From: Catenaria anguillulae PL171
Lineage: Eukaryota; Blastocladiomycota; Blastocladiomycetes; Blastocladiales; Catenariaceae
Assembly (NCBI GenBank): GCA_002102555.1
Contig: MCFL01000001.1
Coordinates: 186,001-250,000 of the forward strand
Direction of reading: 5' to 3'
DNA: 64,000 nucleotides
Below the pieces are notes generated by a model. That model did not search any database and was not told the DNA's origin. It worked only from the letters and a program-made list of their open reading frames with translations. This document shows positions 25,421-47,270 of this stretch, piece by piece. Position 1 is the stretch's first letter, and each line of letters starts with the position of its first letter. The translations under genes and the position numbers were made by a program.

Positions 25421-26287
25421 CTACCGCATTCCGCCGCCAATCATCCCTGGCCCGGCCTGCAAATCCACAGGATGCAGCTTGCGGTTCAGCTCCCTGCCCT
25501 CATTCACGCCAAACCCAAACCTGGCATACCCGTCCACATCCTTTTCCCGCTTGAACCCAACCGCCTCGACCACAGCCGCTGCTGCTGCATTGTCGACATG
25601 CAACTTGACAATGACTTTGCGGATCACTTTTTTCACAGACACGACCTCGTGCAAGACGAGCTCAATCGCCTCCTGTGCATACTCTTTCCCCTGGTCCATA
25701 CCCAGGTCTGGGCGGAACGTAAACTCGAGTTTGGCCACATCCGAATCCAGGTCGACAAATGAGAGATCGGTCGGCACAACGCGCACAGGTGTCACACAGA
25801 GGTAGCCCAGGAACGGGTGGCGAGTGGACTGAATCAAATGACAGGCATTGACGTCTGCGAGTTCGGGTGTGCCGAGGGTCGAGATGGTGGCGGGCAAATG
25901 AGTGCTGTGCGGATACACTTGCTGGGGTTTGCGTGCCTCAACAACGTAAAGTCCGGCGCCAGAGTTGAGGACATGTGCCGAGGTGAGGTCGATGGCCGCC
26001 TGGCGTGTGTCGTCGAGCAAGTGTGCCTCTTGGACAAACTGGGGAAGCGCCACGTGGGCGTCCGTGGAGAGTGTGTACGGCTGGTGGGCGAGTAGGTAGG
26101 CGTAGTAGTGCCAAAAGAGGTCGGTGGTGAGGTTGAGGCACGGGAAGATGCGGCAGTGTGCCGACTTGACGAGCGTCTTGTCCTTTTTGGCATGGGACTT
26201 GAGCAGCTTGGACGAGGCGGACGACGATTTGCTGAGCTCAATGGTGAGCAACAAGTCGGCAGGTGATTGTCCGGCAGAGTAGGTCAT
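25421..26287 (-). CDS. GNAT-fold acetyltransferase-like protein
   Basis: Single exon, 288 aa; the ATG at 26287 (MTYSAGQ) is the first ATG after a TTG-only extension. The C-terminal half has the order of a GNAT domain: FTFRPDLGMDQGKEYAQEAI (motif A, acetyl-CoA pyrophosphate loop in degenerate form), then KVIVKLHVDNAAAAAVVEAVGFKR, the usual late strand and helix with the NxxxxxxxExxGF pattern. The loop DQGKEY departs from the RxxGxG/A consensus, so activity is uncertain. Residues 1-150 match nothing I recognise. Substrate unknown. Confidence 0.72.
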   Translation of the reverse strand: MTYSAGQSPADLLLTIELSKSSSASSKLLKSHAKKDKTLVKSAHCRIFPCLNLTTDLFWHYYAYLLAHQPYTLSTDAHVALPQFVQEAHLLDDTRQAAIDLTSAHVLNSGAGLYVVEARKPQQVYPHSTHLPATISTLGTPELADVNACHLIQSTRHPFLGYLCVTPVRVVPTDLSFVDLDSDVAKLEFTFRPDLGMDQGKEYAQEAIELVLHEVVSVKKVIRKVIVKLHVDNAAAAAVVEAVGFKREKDVDGYARFGFGVNEGRELNRKLHPVDLQAGPGMIGGGMR

Positions 26288-26617
26288 GATGATGATGATG
26301 TCGACGCTGTTGCGTGTCAATGGCTATTGCATAGGTATATTATTTCCCTAACCTAACTTTGTAAAGAAGAGGCGTGGAAATGATTCAGGTTTGAGGCAAA
26401 GTGCGAACCAGTGCCCTTGAAAGAGTCAGATCGGTGTCCGCCAAGTCCTCTGCGATAAGCGCACGTGACGCTGATCCGTTGGACGACTCATGTGTGTCTT
26501 CGTGTTTGAAAGGTCCAAAGAGCTTCAAAAAGGGTGAAAAAGAGTGCGAGACTAGTCTGATCCCGGTAGGCACATACAGTACTTACGCTACGTATACGCA
26601 AGTAGTCAAAACCAAAA
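26288..26617. promoter_or_regulatory. Shared divergent promoter region, GNAT / AsnRS
   Basis: The 330-bp gap separates two divergent start codons. A TATATTATTT stretch near 26334-26343 is AT-rich, but no definite element was identified. Confidence 0.4.
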
Positions 26618-28388
26618 ATGAGCACCAAGTCCATCTACATTGACGAGCACGCCGGCTCCGACTCGGCCACTGGCCTCACCCCGGCCGACGCCCTGTGCTC
26701 TGCCCTTCGCGCCCTCGAGCTGTACGGCGACGACGAGGCCAAGCCCGAGCTCCTTGTGCGCAAGCAAGGAAACCAGGACTTTGAGCCCATTGCCAAGGCT
26801 CAGCTCAAGAAGGTCCAAAAGAAGTACGAGGCCGACAAGGCCAAGGCCGCAAAGGGCGCCGCCAAGGCCGCAGTCGATGCCGACAAGATCAAGGCCAAGG
26901 AGGCCGAGGAGCTGAAGCGGTTGGAGGATGCCAAGAAGATTGAGCTGGTGCTCGACGAGTCCTTGCCCGAGGCAAAGGCCATCAAGATTGGTGTTGCCAA
27001 GGAGCACCGTGGCCAGCGGGTAGCCGTATCGGCCTGGGTCCATCGGTTGCGTGTGCAAGGCAAGGACATGATGTTTGCCGTGCTCCGTGATGGCACCGGG
27101 TACTTGCAGTGTGTCTTCACCGGCCGTCTTGTACGATGATTCATTTTGCTCAACCGCACTCATGGCACCCCGCTTCTTCTCCATAGGCATTTGGCTGACC
27201 AATAATGTAAATCTTTCTATGTAGTGCCATACTTACGACGCACTCACGCTCACCACCGAATCCACCATCAAAGTTTTCGGCACGCTTCACCCGGTTCCCG
27301 AGGGCAAGAACGCCCCCGATGGCCACGAGCTCGTGGTCGACTACTGGACTGTGCTCGGCAAGGCGCCCGGCGGTGACGAGGCATTCACCAACCGCCTCAA
27401 CGCCGAGTCCAACCCGGACGTGCTCTACGACAACCGCCATCTCATGATCCGCGGCGAGACTGCCTCGGCCGTCCTCAAGATGCGTGCGCTCGTGCTGCGC
27501 GCCTTCCGCGAATTCTTTTACGCCGAGGGCTTGACCGAAGTCAACCCGCCGCTCATGGTGCAGACCCAGGTCGAGGGCGGATCCACCTTGTTTGGATTCA
27601 ACTACTATGGCGAGGAGGCGTACCTGACGCAGTCGTCGCAACTGTACCTCGAGACCGTGTTGCCCGCCGTCGGCGATTCCTTCACCATCTCGCAGTCGTT
27701 CCGTGCCGAAAAGTCGCACACGCGCCGTCACTTGTCCGAGTTTACACACATTGAATCCGAGCTCGCATTCATCACGTTTGACGATCTCCTCAACCACCTC
27801 GAGCGCATGTTTGACTTTGTGCTCGATTTCGTGACCCAAGACCCCGTCGGCAAAAAGTTGCTTGCCGAGCTCAACCCTGACTTTGTGCGCCCGCAAACGC
27901 CGTTCCGCCGCATGAAGTATGTTGATGCCATCCAATGGCTCAACGACAACAACGTGCTCAAGGAGGACGGCACGCCGTTCCAAGTGGGCGATGACATCCC
28001 CGAGGCGCCCGAGCGCAAGATGACCGACACGATCGGCGTGCCCATCTTCCTCACCTACTTCCCGCGCGAAATCAAGTCGTTTTACATGAAGCGCGACCCG
28101 AACGACACTCGGTTCACCGAGTCGGTCGATGTGTTGATCCCGAACGTGGGCGAGATTGTGGGTGGATCCATGCGTATGGCCGGGCACCAAGAGTTGTTGG
28201 ATGCGTATGAGCGCGAGGGCATGGACCCTGCCCCGTACTACTGGTACAATGACCAGCGCAAGTATGGCACCACTGAGCACGGCGGATATGGACTCGGTTT
28301 GGAGCGGTTCTTGGCCTGGTTGTTGAACCGGTACACGGTGCGCGAGTGCTGCCTGTACCCGCGGTTTGTGGGCCGCTGCAAGCCGTAA
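26618..28388 (+). CDS. DED81: Cytosolic asparaginyl-tRNA synthetase
   Basis: Two exons, 26618-27130 and 27225-28388, with a 94-nt intron in phase 0; 558 aa. It charges tRNA-Asn. A eukaryote-type N-terminal extension with a Lys/Ala-rich helix (about 68-110) precedes the OB-fold anticodon-binding domain (GQRVAVSAWVHRLR). The class II core shows motif 1 (FREFFYAEGLTEVNPP), motif 2 (SQSFRAEKSHTRRHLSEF) and motif 3 (GYGLGLERFLAWL), and the C-terminus ends YPRFVGRCKP, as in AsnRS rather than AspRS. Convergent with the eRF1-like gene, 248 bp apart. Confidence 0.96.
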
Positions 28389-28636: not shown

Positions 28637-29610
28637 TTACTGGCCCAGATCCAACCTGTATCGCAACAGCCCGCCAATCCCGCCGTACTCGCTCACAAAC
28701 CTTTGTCCTTCTTGCAATTGGCCCGTAACCAGCTTGAGCTTGGCGCCGAAATCAGCAACATTCGCAGTGAACCATGCCAGCAGCGGCTGCTGGTCAATAA
28801 TCTCCAATTTCTGGCCGTCCTGCGCAAAGTGTTCCTGCTCTTGCGCTTGCGCCGGCGTCAGGTGCTTGATCAGATGCTTGTCACTTGGGCCCGCCGCCGG
28901 GTTCTTGAGCACGTAGCGTTGGATTTCGAGATGTTCCGATAGGATGAGCGTTTCGACGGCACCAAGGTCGAGCGCCTGGAATGGACAGCAAGCATTGGAT
29001 CGTGAGATGTTGACGGTCCGGCCATCCCGGCGTGACGGTGGCAAGTGCACGGTACCTTGAGCGTCTCTCGAATGCCAAAGCAGCACTTGCCTGACCCAGA
29101 CAAATGCTCGTCAAAGAATCGTGCCAGCATCTTCTGTTGGCGTTCCATTTTGAGCTCATGTGCAAAATCAGCATCGGCCATCTCTTCGAGAGCTTCAACT
29201 AATACATCGACGCTAAACGCCTTGTCACACATGTACATGAACTGCTTGACGGGCACGACGGGCTTATACGCAACGTCGACCACCTGCTGCTCTTGGTCGG
29301 GCCGGCCATGTACTGTTCCGCAATACACATAGACTCCATTGACAGGCACCTGAGCGAACTGGGCGAGTTTGGCTTGGGTAAGAGCTATGGCCGACGTGAT
29401 TGCGTGGCGATTGGGTGCGGACTTGATCCGTGACGCTGCTCGGTGTTCGTCGGCGAGCAGATTGGTAACATGCGTAAGTGGGATTGCAGGCGGGATAGCG
29501 AGCGAGATGAGCGAGCTCATGGTGCTGATGGCATGGGCGGGTTCGAGGGTGGAGATGAGATGGCGCAAGTCGGCCACTTGGGCGGCAGCATCGTTGTCCC
29601 GCGAGGTCAT
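28637..29610 (-). CDS. eRF1-like protein lacking the central GGQ domain
   Basis: Two exons, complement of 29056-29610 and 28637-28975 (80-nt intron, phase 0), 297 aa versus about 440 for canonical eRF1. The stop-codon-recognition domain is present: SLISLAIPP, LLADEHRAAS, a variant NIKS motif reading RIKS (61-64), VYVYCGTV and the YxCxxxF motif as YMCDKAF (126-132). The C-terminal eRF3-binding domain is also present: ARFFDEHLSGSGKCCFG, ALDLGAVETLILSE, LLAWF, GGIGGLLRYRLD. Between them, where eRF1 has domain 2 with the catalytic GGQ loop, there are only about 15-20 residues (near 140-160), all inside exon 1, so no missed intron explains the loss. The GTS motif is not conserved and the acidic tail is absent. 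It probably cannot release peptides itself; the true eRF1 should be elsewhere. Confidence 0.88.
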
Positions 29611-29795: not shown

Positions 29796-31618
29796 TCAAT
29801 TCCAAACAATGTGCAAGCATTGCTTCAACCTGACCAACCCCCACACCGGGCCATGCCTTCTCACCTCATCACTCGTATCGCCGCCCGTAACCTGTGCCGC
29901 CAACACTTTGACCATCAGGACCGGATCCACGCCAGCCAAACAATCAAAGGTCGCAAACCCTCGCGTCCCCGGCCTTCCCTCCTTGATCTCTGTCTCCCAG
30001 TCATCGGCCTTGACCATCCTGACCCCAAACTTGCTCGCATCCCTCCTCTCATCCACCGTCAGCGTCTCGGTCTTGTTGTACACCCATTGGTCCGAATCCT
30101 CCAAAAACCGCGACGCGCCCGTTTGCGCCGCATACACATCCACATGCACGCTGCGCGCCTTGACTTGCACAAACCAATCGGACCGTGCATTTCTACTCAG
30201 GGACCACATGGCTTCGCCACCAGGATAATTGAAGCTCGAAACTGCGGCCATGCCTAGCGACACGACCAGGGATGCGGCCAGCGAGCCCAGAACCAACATT
30301 TGACCCGCATACCGCCACGCGCGCTTGGTCGCCACAGGCATACTCCACACGCTCGCCATGCCCACAGCCGCACATGCGTTGAGCAAAGGGACCGCATAAA
30401 CGATAAACCTTGTTTCCTTGTGCGGCAACATGGAATACATGCCAACAAACGCGGCAACCACCAAGGCCCAATCGCGCGCGCGAGGATGGTGCGCAATGCC
30501 CACGGGAATCCATGGCAATCCACCCATGACAAGTTTGGGGACGTGCCACGCCGCGTACGCATACCAGGGCTGCGTGCCCCACTTGTGCGACTGGTTGTGC
30601 ACCGTGTTGAACAGGAGCACGTCGAGTTCGGGCCACATCCATGGCCGTGCCCAAAAGTACGAGTCAATGGCAACGCTCAGCACAATGCTGCCGGCGGCTG
30701 CAAGCCCCGCGCGAGCAAGAAAGCGCGGCGTTAGTTTGAGTGTGCCTTTGGCCAGAGCTTGCAGGTACAAGGGCCCGGCGAGCAGAATGAGTTCGGAGCG
30801 AAAGATGAGACCCGCGATGGCAAACAGGGTGGTGGTGATGCGGGGCAAACTGGTGGGTTTGTGGATGGTGGCGGCCAGGGCGAGCGTGGTTGGAATGAGT
30901 GCAAATGTGTTTGGAAGCGTGCGTGTTGCCCAAAAGGTGGTGTGGAACTGTGAAGCGGTCAACAGTAGGTAGATTGCCGAGGTCGAGAGAGAGGACGTCA
31001 AGTCAAAAAGTGAGATGGAGAAGGCGAGGTGCGAGAGGGTGACGAGCAGGCCGAGAGTTGCGCGTGCTGGGAGCAGTTGCTTTGTGTCAACTCAATTTGT
31101 ACGTCTTTTTCGAGAATGGAGTGAGAGGAAAGCCGTCCAGTACCAGCGTAAAGCATGATCATCTTTTGCCTCATCAGAGACGAGACACCGAGGACATGGC
31201 GAGCGGTCCACAGTAAAGGCGAGACAAGCCCCGAAACGGTCAATGCGCCGAGAAATGTACGGGGAACGACGCCAGGAAATGAATGGTGGTCGTACTAGAG
31301 CGCAAATCGTGATAAGCCGGAAGGATCGTTGCCAAGTTTTGAATCAGATGTCGTGAGCCTGAGGAGACATACTCGGGAAGTGTCCTGAACCCCAAGAAAC
31401 AAAATGTCGTGAATGGCCTGCATGTTGAACGATTCTTCCACCTTGGAGTAGGGGGCCAGCCCCAGATAGAGCAGCTGGACGGTCCATAGAAGCAGAGCGC
31501 ACGCCGCCAGAGTGCGATACGGACGTGCGACTGGGCTGGCGGTCGTGGTAACTTGAATGCGATCACGACGGTGGTCCTTGTTGACTGGCGGCATGCTTTT
31601 GTTTTGTATGTTTTCCAT
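29796..31618 (-). CDS. ALG12: Dol-P-Man:Man7GlcNAc2-PP-Dol alpha-1,6-mannosyltransferase
   Basis: Three exons (minus): 31618-31373, 31294-31144, 31066-29796; introns of 78 and 77 nt with matching phases, 555 aa. GT22 family, multi-pass ER membrane protein acting in the lumen on the N-glycan precursor. Motifs: [19 protein letters not shown] in the first luminal loop after a membrane helix, [42 protein letters not shown], and [16 protein letters not shown] in the conserved late segment. About ten hydrophobic segments alternate in the first 300 residues. A decayed copy lies directly upstream. Confidence 0.94.
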
Positions 31619-31839
31619 GAGACCTTGTCAGCTGGAAAAGCTATTGTGAACTGCGAATGGTCCAAGGCTTCATTTAGGTCGCTGCCATCCATTGATGTGG
31701 TTGAGCTAAATACATGGCCGATGGTCGTGGAGAACTCAGTCAAGCATGATCCATGATCCATCCACGGTCAACCAGAATAAGAATGGCAGACCGGAGGAAA
31801 GAATCAGGTTGATGGTAAACGGGTCTATTCCCGTGGGTT

Positions 31840-32500
31840 GTTGTACACACACACACAGCTGCACGTGCGACGTCCCCCATACGGGCCGCATTGGCGCCGC
31901 GGCCAGATTGGTCCACACGGAAGTCAGCAAATTCATCAACCCGAGCTGATGTACCTCGGTCACGCACTCAAAGCACACCACATCGCTCGTTGCCCCAGAC
32001 TTCCCCTCCTGAATCTCTACCCGCCAATCGTCCCACTTGACCATTCGTACACCAAACAAGGCCGCATTCCTGTGCACTTCCCGCCGCACTCACTGCCTGA
32101 TTCTTGTTCAACTCCCACCGGCCCGAATCCTCCAGCAACCGCGACGCACCGCCCATCATCCGCAACGCATAGACTCATCCAAGTGCACAGTGCGCGTCGT
32201 GACATTTGCCAACCATCCCGAATTGGCGGGGGTACTGAGATACCGCATCGCATGTCCACCAGGTTGCTCCAAGCTCGCGATCCGAGCGATACCCCAGGAC
32301 ACTGTATGCGACCCAACGAGCGACACAAATATTAATACGATCCACAGCATGGGCGTCAGGATCCATGAAATGAACAATGGACCAACAAACGTTCGCGGTG
32401 TGGCATTTGGTGTGGACGTGTTGCCGACGCCAAGGAACAGAATGTCGTGGATGGCGTTCAAGCTGAAGGCTTCGTCTGGGCTCGAGTAAGGTGCTACATA
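31840..32500 (-). pseudogene. Decayed, internally deleted ALG12 copy
   Basis: On the same strand and about 0.2 kb upstream of intact ALG12, three blocks of ALG12-like protein appear in order but in different frames: [15 protein letters not shown] with PRTFVGPLF (32460-32360), LEQPGGHAMRYLS with TRTVHLD (32290-32170), and ASRLLEDSGRWELNKNQA, then FGVRMVKWDDW with EIQEGKSG (32150-31990), fading near PVWG. The transmembrane and catalytic centre, roughly ALG12 residues 95-270, is missing. Frame changes and a TGA near 32156 interrupt it. This is a tandem-duplicate pseudogene rather than a second enzyme. Confidence 0.82.
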
Positions 32501-32559
32501 GTCTCATGCAGGGGAGTTGAATGCCCAACAGGAGCAGGACGCAAAGAAACGGCCTGTAA

Positions 32560-44953: not shown

Positions 44954-47212
44954 TCAAATGACCCGCTCATGCCTCGTCCCCTCTCGACACCACATGCTCA
45001 CCTCCGCCTTGCGATACCCCTTGACCATGCCCCCACAACTGCCATCCATATCGACGCGACCCGACTCGCGCGGACTGCACATGGGACACATGATGAGCGC
45101 GCTCGACCCCGCGGCGCCTGCCAACCCCATCTGCATCATAGCCTCGTGCATCCCGGGGACCATCATGCTCATGCCGCCCAACATGCCTGCCAATGCATCC
45201 ATCTGGCCCGCGCCAAACATGTCCACGACCAGATCACATTTCGGACACGTGTCGCGCTTGACGCGCGACCCGTCCCGATATTGTGTTGTGCTGGCCCCGG
45301 CCCCAGCCCCGGACCCGCGCGGCAACCTCCCGCTCAAGTCCGCCTCGACTGCCGTGTGCGCAAACGCCACCTTGGCGATTCCGGTCCACGCGTCCGGATA
45401 CGCATCCAACAGATCCGTCAAGTGCGGCACCGACACAAGCTGCCCGCGCATCCCCGGCTCGCCATTGCGGTCAAATTGGTCCACATTCAAGTTATCAATG
45501 ATGAGGTTGCGCAACCTTGCGCCAGGCCACCCGAACGCCTTGGGCGGACTCAAGACTTGGCGCACAATTTGCTGCAGATCGGCCTCGGCCAGTTCCGTGT
45601 ACGCGATACGTGCACGGACAAGCCTAGGGTACCGCAGGAGGGTTGGCAAAACGTTCGGCGCGTAAAACGACACGTGCTTGGTGTCGGTCGATATCAAGAG
45701 CAAGTGCGCGAGGTTTGGCGCGTTTGGCAGCGAAGAGGGAATGCGGTATGGCGGATGGGCAGAGCGGAATCCGAGAGGCGCAAACGAGTGAGTGCAGGTT
45801 TCGAGCCGGATCAGGTTGGGCAGTGTCAAGTGCTCGAGCGTCAGTGGGGTGCGTTTGGTCACTTTAGGGTCGCACAAAAAGGCTGACAGTGGTAAGAAGG
45901 ATGGAGCGTTTGGATTGGCGAGATGAGGAGGCATCACAGCAAGCTTGACGAGTTTCAGGTAAATGTTTTCGATGCCATGAAGCAAGCCTGGGTGAATGGC
46001 CACCGTGGGACACTCGTAATGTGCCAGCTGGTGCGGGCCGCGTCCTTCGACTTCAAGGCTCAGGCTGCGGAGATGATTGCGAGTCGGGCGTGTTGAATCA
46101 AGCTTGGTGCGCGCAGTGGTATTGGCCGCGGGCAACGAGTACGAGGCCGTGGATAGAGGCGGATCCGTCCGGTGCAGGGTGATCGCAGTCAAGTAAACAG
46201 ACTGCAAGAGCGTGCCTCGATAAGCTGGACGGCGCAGAAAGCAATCAAGGTTGGCCAGGAGAAAGTCCAAGGGCACGCGCAGGTTGCGCAGCTCGAGGCT
46301 CACGAGGTTGGGCATGGCATTTGCCAGTTGTGCGAGCACATTGGATGCGTTGTCCATCGTGAGAAACATGGAGTTGCTCGCAACAAACTCGGTCAAGCCC
46401 ACCCAAGGTCCGTACGCGCCAAACTGGAGCAGTTGGTTGACGGCACGCTGGACTTGGCTGGAAAACATGTATGTGTTTTCCGGGTTGGTGCCCACCCAGA
46501 CCAACTGTGAACAATTGCTTTGAGCGCGAATGTGCCGGCGCTCGAGCATATCGTGACTTTGGCCCACATCGGTGGTGATGAACGAGACGGCGGCAGCCGT
46601 GACCTGGTTCGGCTGCGATAGGTCAAAGATCCGGTCGGCACCATTGACACGAATACCGAGGCGGGTCCGCGCACGCTCGGGAGTACCCAGTGCGGCGGCC
46701 TTGCCCATTTCTGTCGTGATTTCGGCCCGACGAATGGTCCACTTGTGTTGTTCGTCCAAGGACAAGGACGTGAGGTCGGAAAATGGGACAATGGCAATGT
46801 GGCCCTGTTCAAAGATGTTTTCCACATCACTTGTAATGTCGACTTGCTTGCGACCCCAGTCCATGGCTGCCACATAGTAGACGCCGCGCGCAAATCCATT
46901 CCAAGAGGCCCCGTTGGTGTAGTCGTTGACGACCACAGCGGAAAACGGCGCCTTGGATGACGACAAGAGCTTGCCGCGGCGACCGCGAAGAATGCGCGCA
47001 AGGTCCAGGACGCCAAAAGTGAGGCATGGCAACGCCACATCAAGGTCTGGCACGCGCGTTGGCAACGCTGGACGTACAGTATCGATGGAAGGCTCGTTGA
47101 GTGTTGAGTGTGATTGAATCAATGCGTTGCGACTGGCACGTTTAGTGTGTGCCGTCTGCACATAGTAAGGGACAATGACAATGGAAAGATGACTTGGACC
47201 AACTAAGTGCAA
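44954..47212 (-). CDS. Leu-rich F-box/LRR-like protein with Cys/Met-rich C-terminus; start unresolved
   Basis: An open frame of 752 codons on the minus strand. It begins at a TTG (47212); the first in-frame ATG is far inside at 46864, yet the sequence before it (LPTRVPDLDVALPCLTFGVL) looks like real protein, so a short 5' exon with the true ATG is probably missing. The body has many irregular leucine-rich segments (LVSLELRNLRVPLDFLL, LEHLTLPNLIRLET, LAHLLLIS), as in F-box/LRR proteins. Near the C-terminus a CPKC and a CPMC pair flank a loop of about 50 residues with many methionines, a possible zinc ribbon with an unusual Met-rich insert. Function unknown. Confidence 0.7.
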   Translation of the reverse strand: MHLVGPSHLSIVIVPYYVQTAHTKRASRNALIQSHSTLNEPSIDTVRPALPTRVPDLDVALPCLTFGVLDLARILRGRRGKLLSSSKAPFSAVVVNDYTNGASWNGFARGVYYVAAMDWGRKQVDITSDVENIFEQGHIAIVPFSDLTSLSLDEQHKWTIRRAEITTEMGKAAALGTPERARTRLGIRVNGADRIFDLSQPNQVTAAAVSFITTDVGQSHDMLERRHIRAQSNCSQLVWVGTNPENTYMFSSQVQRAVNQLLQFGAYGPWVGLTEFVASNSMFLTMDNASNVLAQLANAMPNLVSLELRNLRVPLDFLLANLDCFLRRPAYRGTLLQSVYLTAITLHRTDPPLSTASYSLPAANTTARTKLDSTRPTRNHLRSLSLEVEGRGPHQLAHYECPTVAIHPGLLHGIENIYLKLVKLAVMPPHLANPNAPSFLPLSAFLCDPKVTKRTPLTLEHLTLPNLIRLETCTHSFAPLGFRSAHPPYRIPSSLPNAPNLAHLLLISTDTKHVSFYAPNVLPTLLRYPRLVRARIAYTELAEADLQQIVRQVLSPPKAFGWPGARLRNLIIDNLNVDQFDRNGEPGMRGQLVSVPHLTDLLDAYPDAWTGIAKVAFAHTAVEADLSGRLPRGSGAGAGASTTQYRDGSRVKRDTCPKCDLVVDMFGAGQMDALAGMLGGMSMMVPGMHEAMMQMGLAGAAGSSALIMCPMCSPRESGRVDMDGSCGGMVKGYRKAEVSMWCREGTRHERVI

Positions 47213-47270
47213 TCCCGTCCCTCGCCATCGCCATCGCTATCCTCCAATTCCAACACAATTGTTGACAAGA

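Follow-up and report, generated by a model that had tools for sequence, protein, structure and literature searches.

A diverged eRF1 paralogue lacking the GGQ-bearing domain in the fungus Catenaria anguillulae

The window analysed here is a stretch of 64,000 nucleotides (positions 186001-250000 of contig C1) from the genome of Catenaria anguillulae PL171, the 41-Mb assembly of which (457 contigs) was also used for the genome searches. On its minus strand, the window contains a two-exon gene (29610..28637) encoding a 297-residue paralogue of the termination factor eRF1, which lacks the GGQ-bearing middle (M) domain. According to the splice model, exon 1 (29056..29610) encodes residues 1-185, comprising the N domain, a short junction and the beginning of the C domain. 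It is followed by an 80-base GT-AG intron (28976..29055) located in phase 0 after the sequence ETLK, and by exon 2 (28637..28975), which was found by splice model and alignment to supply residues 186-297, that is the remainder of the C domain, and a TAA stop codon. The spliced product is identical over its whole length to the database protein P0002, which carries the name '50S ribosomal protein L30e-like protein [Catenaria anguillulae PL171]'. The splice model and this database protein agree with the coordinates, strand and length assigned to the gene in an earlier interpretation of the DNA letters (here called the sequence-only reading).

The N domain, which is the stop-codon-reading domain, occupies residues 1-143 (window 29182..29610), and the eRF3-binding C domain, which is split by the intron, residues 150-297 (28640..29163). 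Pfam profiles detected eRF1_1 at residues 31-141 (35.8 bits, cut-off 23.8) and eRF1_3 at residues 157-293 (81.9 bits, cut-off 25.8), and the M-domain profile eRF1_2 produced no match in the protein at E values up to 1. In alignments with human eRF1 (chains 2lgt and 1dt9; positions are given in the 437-residue numbering), residues 9-143 correspond to human residues 11-142 and residues 150-295 to human residues 275-419. Only six residues (144-149, window 29164..29181) occupy the place of human residues 143-274, and both the M domain and its GGQ are missing from this alignment as well. Profiles and alignment therefore agree on the architecture proposed in the sequence-only reading, with both outer domains retained and the GGQ domain absent. 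Its proposal that the M domain was replaced inside a single exon was also correct, since the junction lies within exon 1, but the replacement is about six residues long by alignment rather than 15-20.

In ribosome-bound eRF1, the M domain has been described to pivot about Asp142, and the hinge between the M and C domains is centred on residue 276 (PMC5119991). The cut sites in the paralogue are located at or beside these two positions, and the missing part is thus the segment between both hinges. In one alignment, the sequence MADADFAHEL is a possible leftover of the M-domain stretch MAGSADFKTEL; alternatively, these residues align with the beginning of the helix in the C domain. The score of the paralogue on the pelota equivalog model TIGR00111 was below the cut-off (20 bits versus 177.65). 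In the AlphaFold2 model, which has a mean predicted local distance difference test (pLDDT) score of 83.5, both domains are predicted to fold, and each superposes on the corresponding domain of eRF1.

Across the whole genome, the M-domain model matched in only two places, the canonical eRF1 gene (C1:160109-160504) and a gene on contig C212. The latter gene is Dom34/Pelota: its two exons cover the pelota model end to end (profile positions 7-208 and 209-337 of 351, with 144 and 86.9 bits), with each exon singly remaining under the whole-protein cut-off of 177.65. The N-domain model matched in three places of the genome, and the C-domain model gave four exon matches within the same three genes. 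A search of the same genome for a full-length eRF1, as suggested in the sequence-only reading, located the canonical gene about 54 kb from the paralogue, on the same contig and the same strand. A missed M-domain exon at the paralogue locus was ruled out, since all genome-wide matches of the M-domain model are accounted for by these two other genes. An error of the assembly or the gene model, by which the M exon of a full-length paralogue would have been missed or collapsed, is very improbable. The database gene model is presumably automatic, but the genome-wide M-domain matches fall in the canonical eRF1 and Dom34 genes alone and the junction is inside one open exon. In addition, 45-61% of the residues in the flanking domains are different from those of canonical eRF1, a divergence that a collapse of the canonical copy cannot produce. 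Three findings fit the sequence-only reading of the protein as a non-releasing eRF1 paralogue: its architecture, a full-length eRF1 encoded separately, and no match to the M domain at this locus. The roles as termination antagonist, readthrough factor or ribosome sensor which that reading also put forward are hypothetical.

The intron of the paralogue (after ETLK) has the same position and phase (0) as that of canonical eRF1 (after DTLK), indicating a duplicate formed at the DNA level and excluding a retrocopy. Alignment A2 has 45 rows, and the single-domain trees were built from 27 of them (25 fungal sequences including the paralogue, and two arthropods as the outgroup). In the N-only and C-only trees, the paralogue groups with the eRF1s of Catenaria, Blastocladiella and two Allomyces (support 97/99 and 95/99, respectively), and its branch is very long in both. 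In the 45-row two-domain tree, the 40 eRF1s from outside Blastocladiomycota group without the paralogue (91/81), whose branch is again extreme. Together, the intron and the trees identify the paralogue as a duplicate that arose within Blastocladiomycota. Five approximately unbiased (AU) tests, made to date the duplication inside this group, rejected none of the groupings tested (p values of 0.43 to 0.52), and three further groupings were already present in the best trees. Comparison of both eRF1 neighbourhoods revealed no clear duplicated block, only a four-member family at 143-171 kb and 231-233 kb of the contig. Its members are long related reading frames on one strand (window 44957-47236; C1 143159-145903, 165685-168390 and 168667-171225), which are 28-50% identical; a Pfam scan of one of them gave no match.

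Comparison with canonical eRF1 over 290 aligned codons showed differences at 109 first, 82 second and 153 third codon positions. Identity at the protein level is 48.6%, and the paralogue has neither stops nor frameshifts. Simulated mutation of the canonical gene to equal protein divergence introduced on average 7.29 stops (kappa 2) or 6.64 stops (kappa 4), and every one of 300 runs contained at least one stop. At equal nucleotide divergence, 9.9 stops were introduced and none of 1000 runs was stop-free. The observed replacements were also milder than neutral ones, with a mean BLOSUM62 score of -0.04 compared to -0.64 and -0.57 in the simulations (top runs -0.29 and -0.17). Conserved hydrophobic positions are still hydrophobic in 24 of 27 cases in the N domain and in 24 of 25 cases in the C domain, as counted without a neutral control. 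With 51% of the residues replaced without a stop or frameshift, with conservative replacements and with both domains predicted to fold, the paralogue has, on this evidence, spent most of its history evolving as a protein. The long divergence without stops also excludes a recent pseudogene of canonical eRF1.

Alignment of the N domain bore out two motifs noted in the sequence-only reading, RIKS where NIKS is expected (residues 61-64, window 29419..29430) and an intact YxCxxxF in the form of YMCDKAF (residues 126-132, 29215..29235). The GTS motif, which had been described as absent, is altered to STMSS (residues 29-33, 29512..29526): G31 is indeed replaced by Ser, but T32 and S33 are still present, separated by a two-residue insertion whose placement by the aligner determines this pattern. 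According to PMC5681627, stop-codon reading involves Lys63, which Arg68 holds in place, the pair of Glu55 and Tyr125, and a cluster of hydrophobic residues (Cys127, Ile35, Ile62, Val71, Ala74 and Ile75). Of these ten residues of the stop-codon pocket, nine are identical in the paralogue, and Val71 is replaced by Ile. The background pool consisted of N-domain columns conserved in 44 canonical rows, of which the paralogue keeps 42 of 84 at a threshold of at least 90% and 35 of 63 at 97%. Relative to this pool, the retention of the pocket gave hypergeometric P values of 0.007 (90% threshold) and 0.017 (97%), for a set which is small and was met in the cited source before mapping. Changes in the N domain are located at G31, G57, N61, R65, V66 and S70 (among them N61R and G31S), and they argue for an altered decoding, should decoding persist at all. 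The altered codon reading suspected in the sequence-only reading is consistent with these changes and with the faster divergence of the N domain relative to the C domain, whereas the nine retained pocket residues speak against it.

In the C domain, the motif GGIGGLLRY, which has been implicated in eRF3 binding (PMC2613156, PMC4081094), is intact (residues 283-291, window 28658..28684), and the residue directly before it is changed from Phe to Tyr. The yeast eRF1 mutants F401S and G403D were reported to lose two-hybrid binding to Pneumocystis eRF3 (PMC4081094); by the motif, F401 and G403 map to this Tyr and to a retained Gly of the paralogue. The minidomain pair Arg330-Trp377 described for eRF1 (PMC5119991) corresponds to R205 and W253, the Arg being placed by human numbering and the Trp by motif. 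An eRF3 gene is present in the genome on contig C414, and its two exon pieces best match solved eRF3 chains. A pattern search of the genome for the eRF3 motif GRFTLRD, which is located near helix 8 of eRF1 (PMC3950680), produced no match because the eRF3 gene of this organism has GRFTIRC (C414 around 194659-194958). This difference from the GRFTLRD of PMC3950680 is perhaps a coincidence; helix 8, the neighbour of the motif, is the helix absent from the M-less paralogue. Two EF1-family GTPase genes were each found on paired contigs with equal scores (C33/C58, 103 bits; C2/C36, 100.2 bits) and similar frame lengths, as if these contigs were allelic or recently duplicated, and the eRF1 loci have no such pairing.

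In the first protein search (8000 candidates scored), the best 120 of 267 matches included 119 proteins other than P0002, and all 119 carry the M domain. A second search, using an M-deleted profile and a length limit that excluded full eRF1s, yielded six further proteins with N and C domains only among the best 120 of 3748 matches; this status was taken from a precomputed Pfam list and then judged from the protein alignment. The six proteins (P0123, P0216, P0218, P0224, P0229 and P0234) were set aside as M-less eRF1s, because they have near-canonical sequences with ragged cuts inside the N, M or C domain, a pattern that sequence fragments, copies in decay or faulty gene models would produce. 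A search with the core of the paralogue (125 candidates scored) gave seven matches, of which only P0002 has both domains without M. No title listed in the literature search, whose coverage leaves out most subscription journals, describes an M-less eRF1, and no title concerning release factors was found among those listed for the Catenaria anguillulae genome.

At the sequence level, the presence of the N and C domains, the absence of M, the shared intron, the constraint over most of the divergence and the presence of an eRF3 gene suggest, with a probability of roughly 0.4, that the paralogue is a diverged eRF1 duplicate from which the M domain was lost as one unit, and that it has been retained as a protein and serves as a built-in competitive inhibitor of termination. 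The C domain would still bind eRF3, docking on eRF3 domain 3 and perhaps also on the P stalk, and the N domain could still occupy the A site, possibly favouring stop codons to some degree. In eRF1, the M domain contacts the switch regions of eRF3 (PMC5119991, PMC3950680). Lacking both the GGQ and this contact, a complex of the paralogue with eRF3 would not release the peptide and would not properly trigger GTP hydrolysis. When expressed, the protein would compete for eRF3 or for A sites, resulting in slower termination or more readthrough. It is doubtful, but conceivable, that it represents a genome-encoded termination brake, still able to recognise a stop codon and to engage eRF3 while having no access to the peptidyl-transferase centre, with which this zoosporic fungus would delay termination or favour readthrough at chosen times.

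Several observations weigh against a competitive inhibitor. Identity to canonical eRF1 is 39% in the N domain and 55% in the C domain. Canonical eRF1s compared with each other behave differently, as their N domain is at least as conserved as the C domain in five of six comparisons (two Allomyces rows show the opposite by less than 1%). The faster divergence of the N domain in the paralogue points to relaxed or changed decoding. In a broader 20-member decoding set, which adds the GTS loop, M51, G57, N61, S64, S70, L126 and F131, retention was suggestive only, with 13 of 19 residues kept at the 90% threshold (P 0.058) and 13 of 18 at 97% (P 0.079). On the aRF1/eRF1 equivalog model TIGR03676 (NCBIfam), which spans all three domains, the paralogue scores 172.3 bits, under the cut-off of 234.7, compared to 436.6 bits for canonical eRF1 (P0003). 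The acidic C-terminal tail of canonical eRF1, which is described as a main contact to uL11 (PMC5119991), is absent, and the splice donor is GTACCG, unlike the GTATGT of the canonical gene. Conserved orthologues in related fungi, which the sequence-only reading had proposed to align, were not found among the matches listed in the protein searches; these searches covered annotated proteins of relatives sharing exact five-residue words and could miss unannotated or very distant orthologues. Finally, the constraint tests span the entire branch since the duplication and are blind to the share of it that followed the loss of M.

The last point bears directly on decay, to which we assign a substantial minority chance. 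In this case, a divergent full-length eRF1 would have remained functional over a long period before a recent loss of the M domain, and the gene would now be neutral or nearly so. The restriction to one species among the matches listed, the unusual splice donor and the fast divergence of the N domain are in line with such a history, and in partly neutral simulations 11% of 300 runs were still stop-free at 30% neutral replacements (2.7% at 40% and 4.3% at 50%). It is less compatible with the absence of stops and frameshifts over the whole gene combined with conservative replacements, with the intact intron borders and with a cut that coincides with the domain hinges, whereas a random deletion could have ended elsewhere. 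A simple pseudogene and an assembly deletion, both considered in the sequence-only reading, are disfavoured by the constraint and the predicted fold, and what keeps some weight is a later loss of M in an older paralogue.

The unequal conservation of the two domains also raises the possibility, which we consider rather unlikely, that the C domain alone matters. Acting away from the A site, it would titrate or regulate eRF3 or another partner of the C domain, such as ABCE1 or the P stalk, with the N domain being a passenger or having a new role. The C domain is better kept not only in identity but also in conserved columns (40 of 62 compared to 42 of 84 in the N domain), and it retains the eRF3-binding motif. 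However, the nine pocket residues of the N domain would be superfluous in a passenger, and the hydrophobic positions of this domain, within the limits of an uncontrolled count, are also largely preserved.

On one flank (window 29799-32503, minus strand), the paralogue is adjoined by an Alg9-like mannosyltransferase gene (PF03901), beyond which there are shorter related reading frames (31739-32089 and 32159-32503), a tandem duplicate that is perhaps decayed. The other flank (window 25421-28388) carries a weak GNAT-like frame (21.9 bits, cut-off 25.4) and a class II D/K/N-type tRNA synthetase gene, which is convergent with the eRF1 paralogue, with about 250 bases separating the stops.

With canonical eRF1 (ETF1/SUP45; P0003), the paralogue shares the N and C domains, the intron position, the eRF3-binding motif and most of the stop-codon pocket, but it is distinguished by the loss of the GGQ-bearing M domain and the acidic tail and by the N61R and G31S replacements. 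Like the laboratory release-dead eRF1(AAQ) mutants (PDB 3jag and 5lzv, both among the structures matched by the paralogue), it would be expected in the A site without peptide release; those are engineered point changes in an intact M domain, whereas here the absence of the whole domain is natural. Human eRF1 isoform 2, another natural shortened eRF1, has been reported to release poorly, to bind eRF3a with weaker stimulation of its GTPase, to inhibit translation in lysates and to change readthrough in either direction depending on the context, demonstrating that a defective eRF1 can act on translation (PMC11277123). According to the same source, this isoform lacks 33 N-terminal residues through alternative splicing and keeps the M domain. 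The ciliate eRF1-2 paralogues are likewise divergent second eRF1s with a variant NIKS and a conserved YxCxxxF, but their GGQ is described as conserved (PMC2613156). Dom34/Pelota also has an eRF1-like C domain and no peptide release activity, but its M domain is retained in shortened form, and its N domain is a different one, described as having neither NIKS nor YxCxxxF (PMC2613156).

Domain losses have also been described for baeRF1 and VLRF1, members of the aeRF1 superfamily, which dropped the N and/or C domains and kept the central RNase-H-fold domain, the one lost in the paralogue (PMC6514570). Balon and Rv2629 are aeRF1 relatives which, as proposed for the paralogue, occupy the A site without release activity; they are described as bacterial proteins with three domains including M and without NIKS (PMC10901736). 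By analogy to Balon in bacteria, the paralogue might be a hibernation or protection factor of the aeRF1 family, which occupies empty A sites in resting stages. This role is quite improbable, as Balon retains its middle domain and uses it in the peptidyl-transferase centre (PMC10901736), the paralogue scores below the cut-off of the Rv2629-family model NF052289 (21.6 bits versus 320), and it keeps the stop-codon-reading residues.

Judged from its sequence, the architecture of the paralogue is real, unusual and old, and among the matches listed it has so far been seen in one species. The aeRF1-family members described in the cited sources keep the central domain even when they lose others, and the paralogue does the opposite. 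If true, a natural fusion of N and C domains under constraint would mean that decoding and eRF3 docking can be useful without peptide release. The paralogue would then offer a natural means of testing whether occupying the A site or titrating eRF3 can in itself regulate termination.
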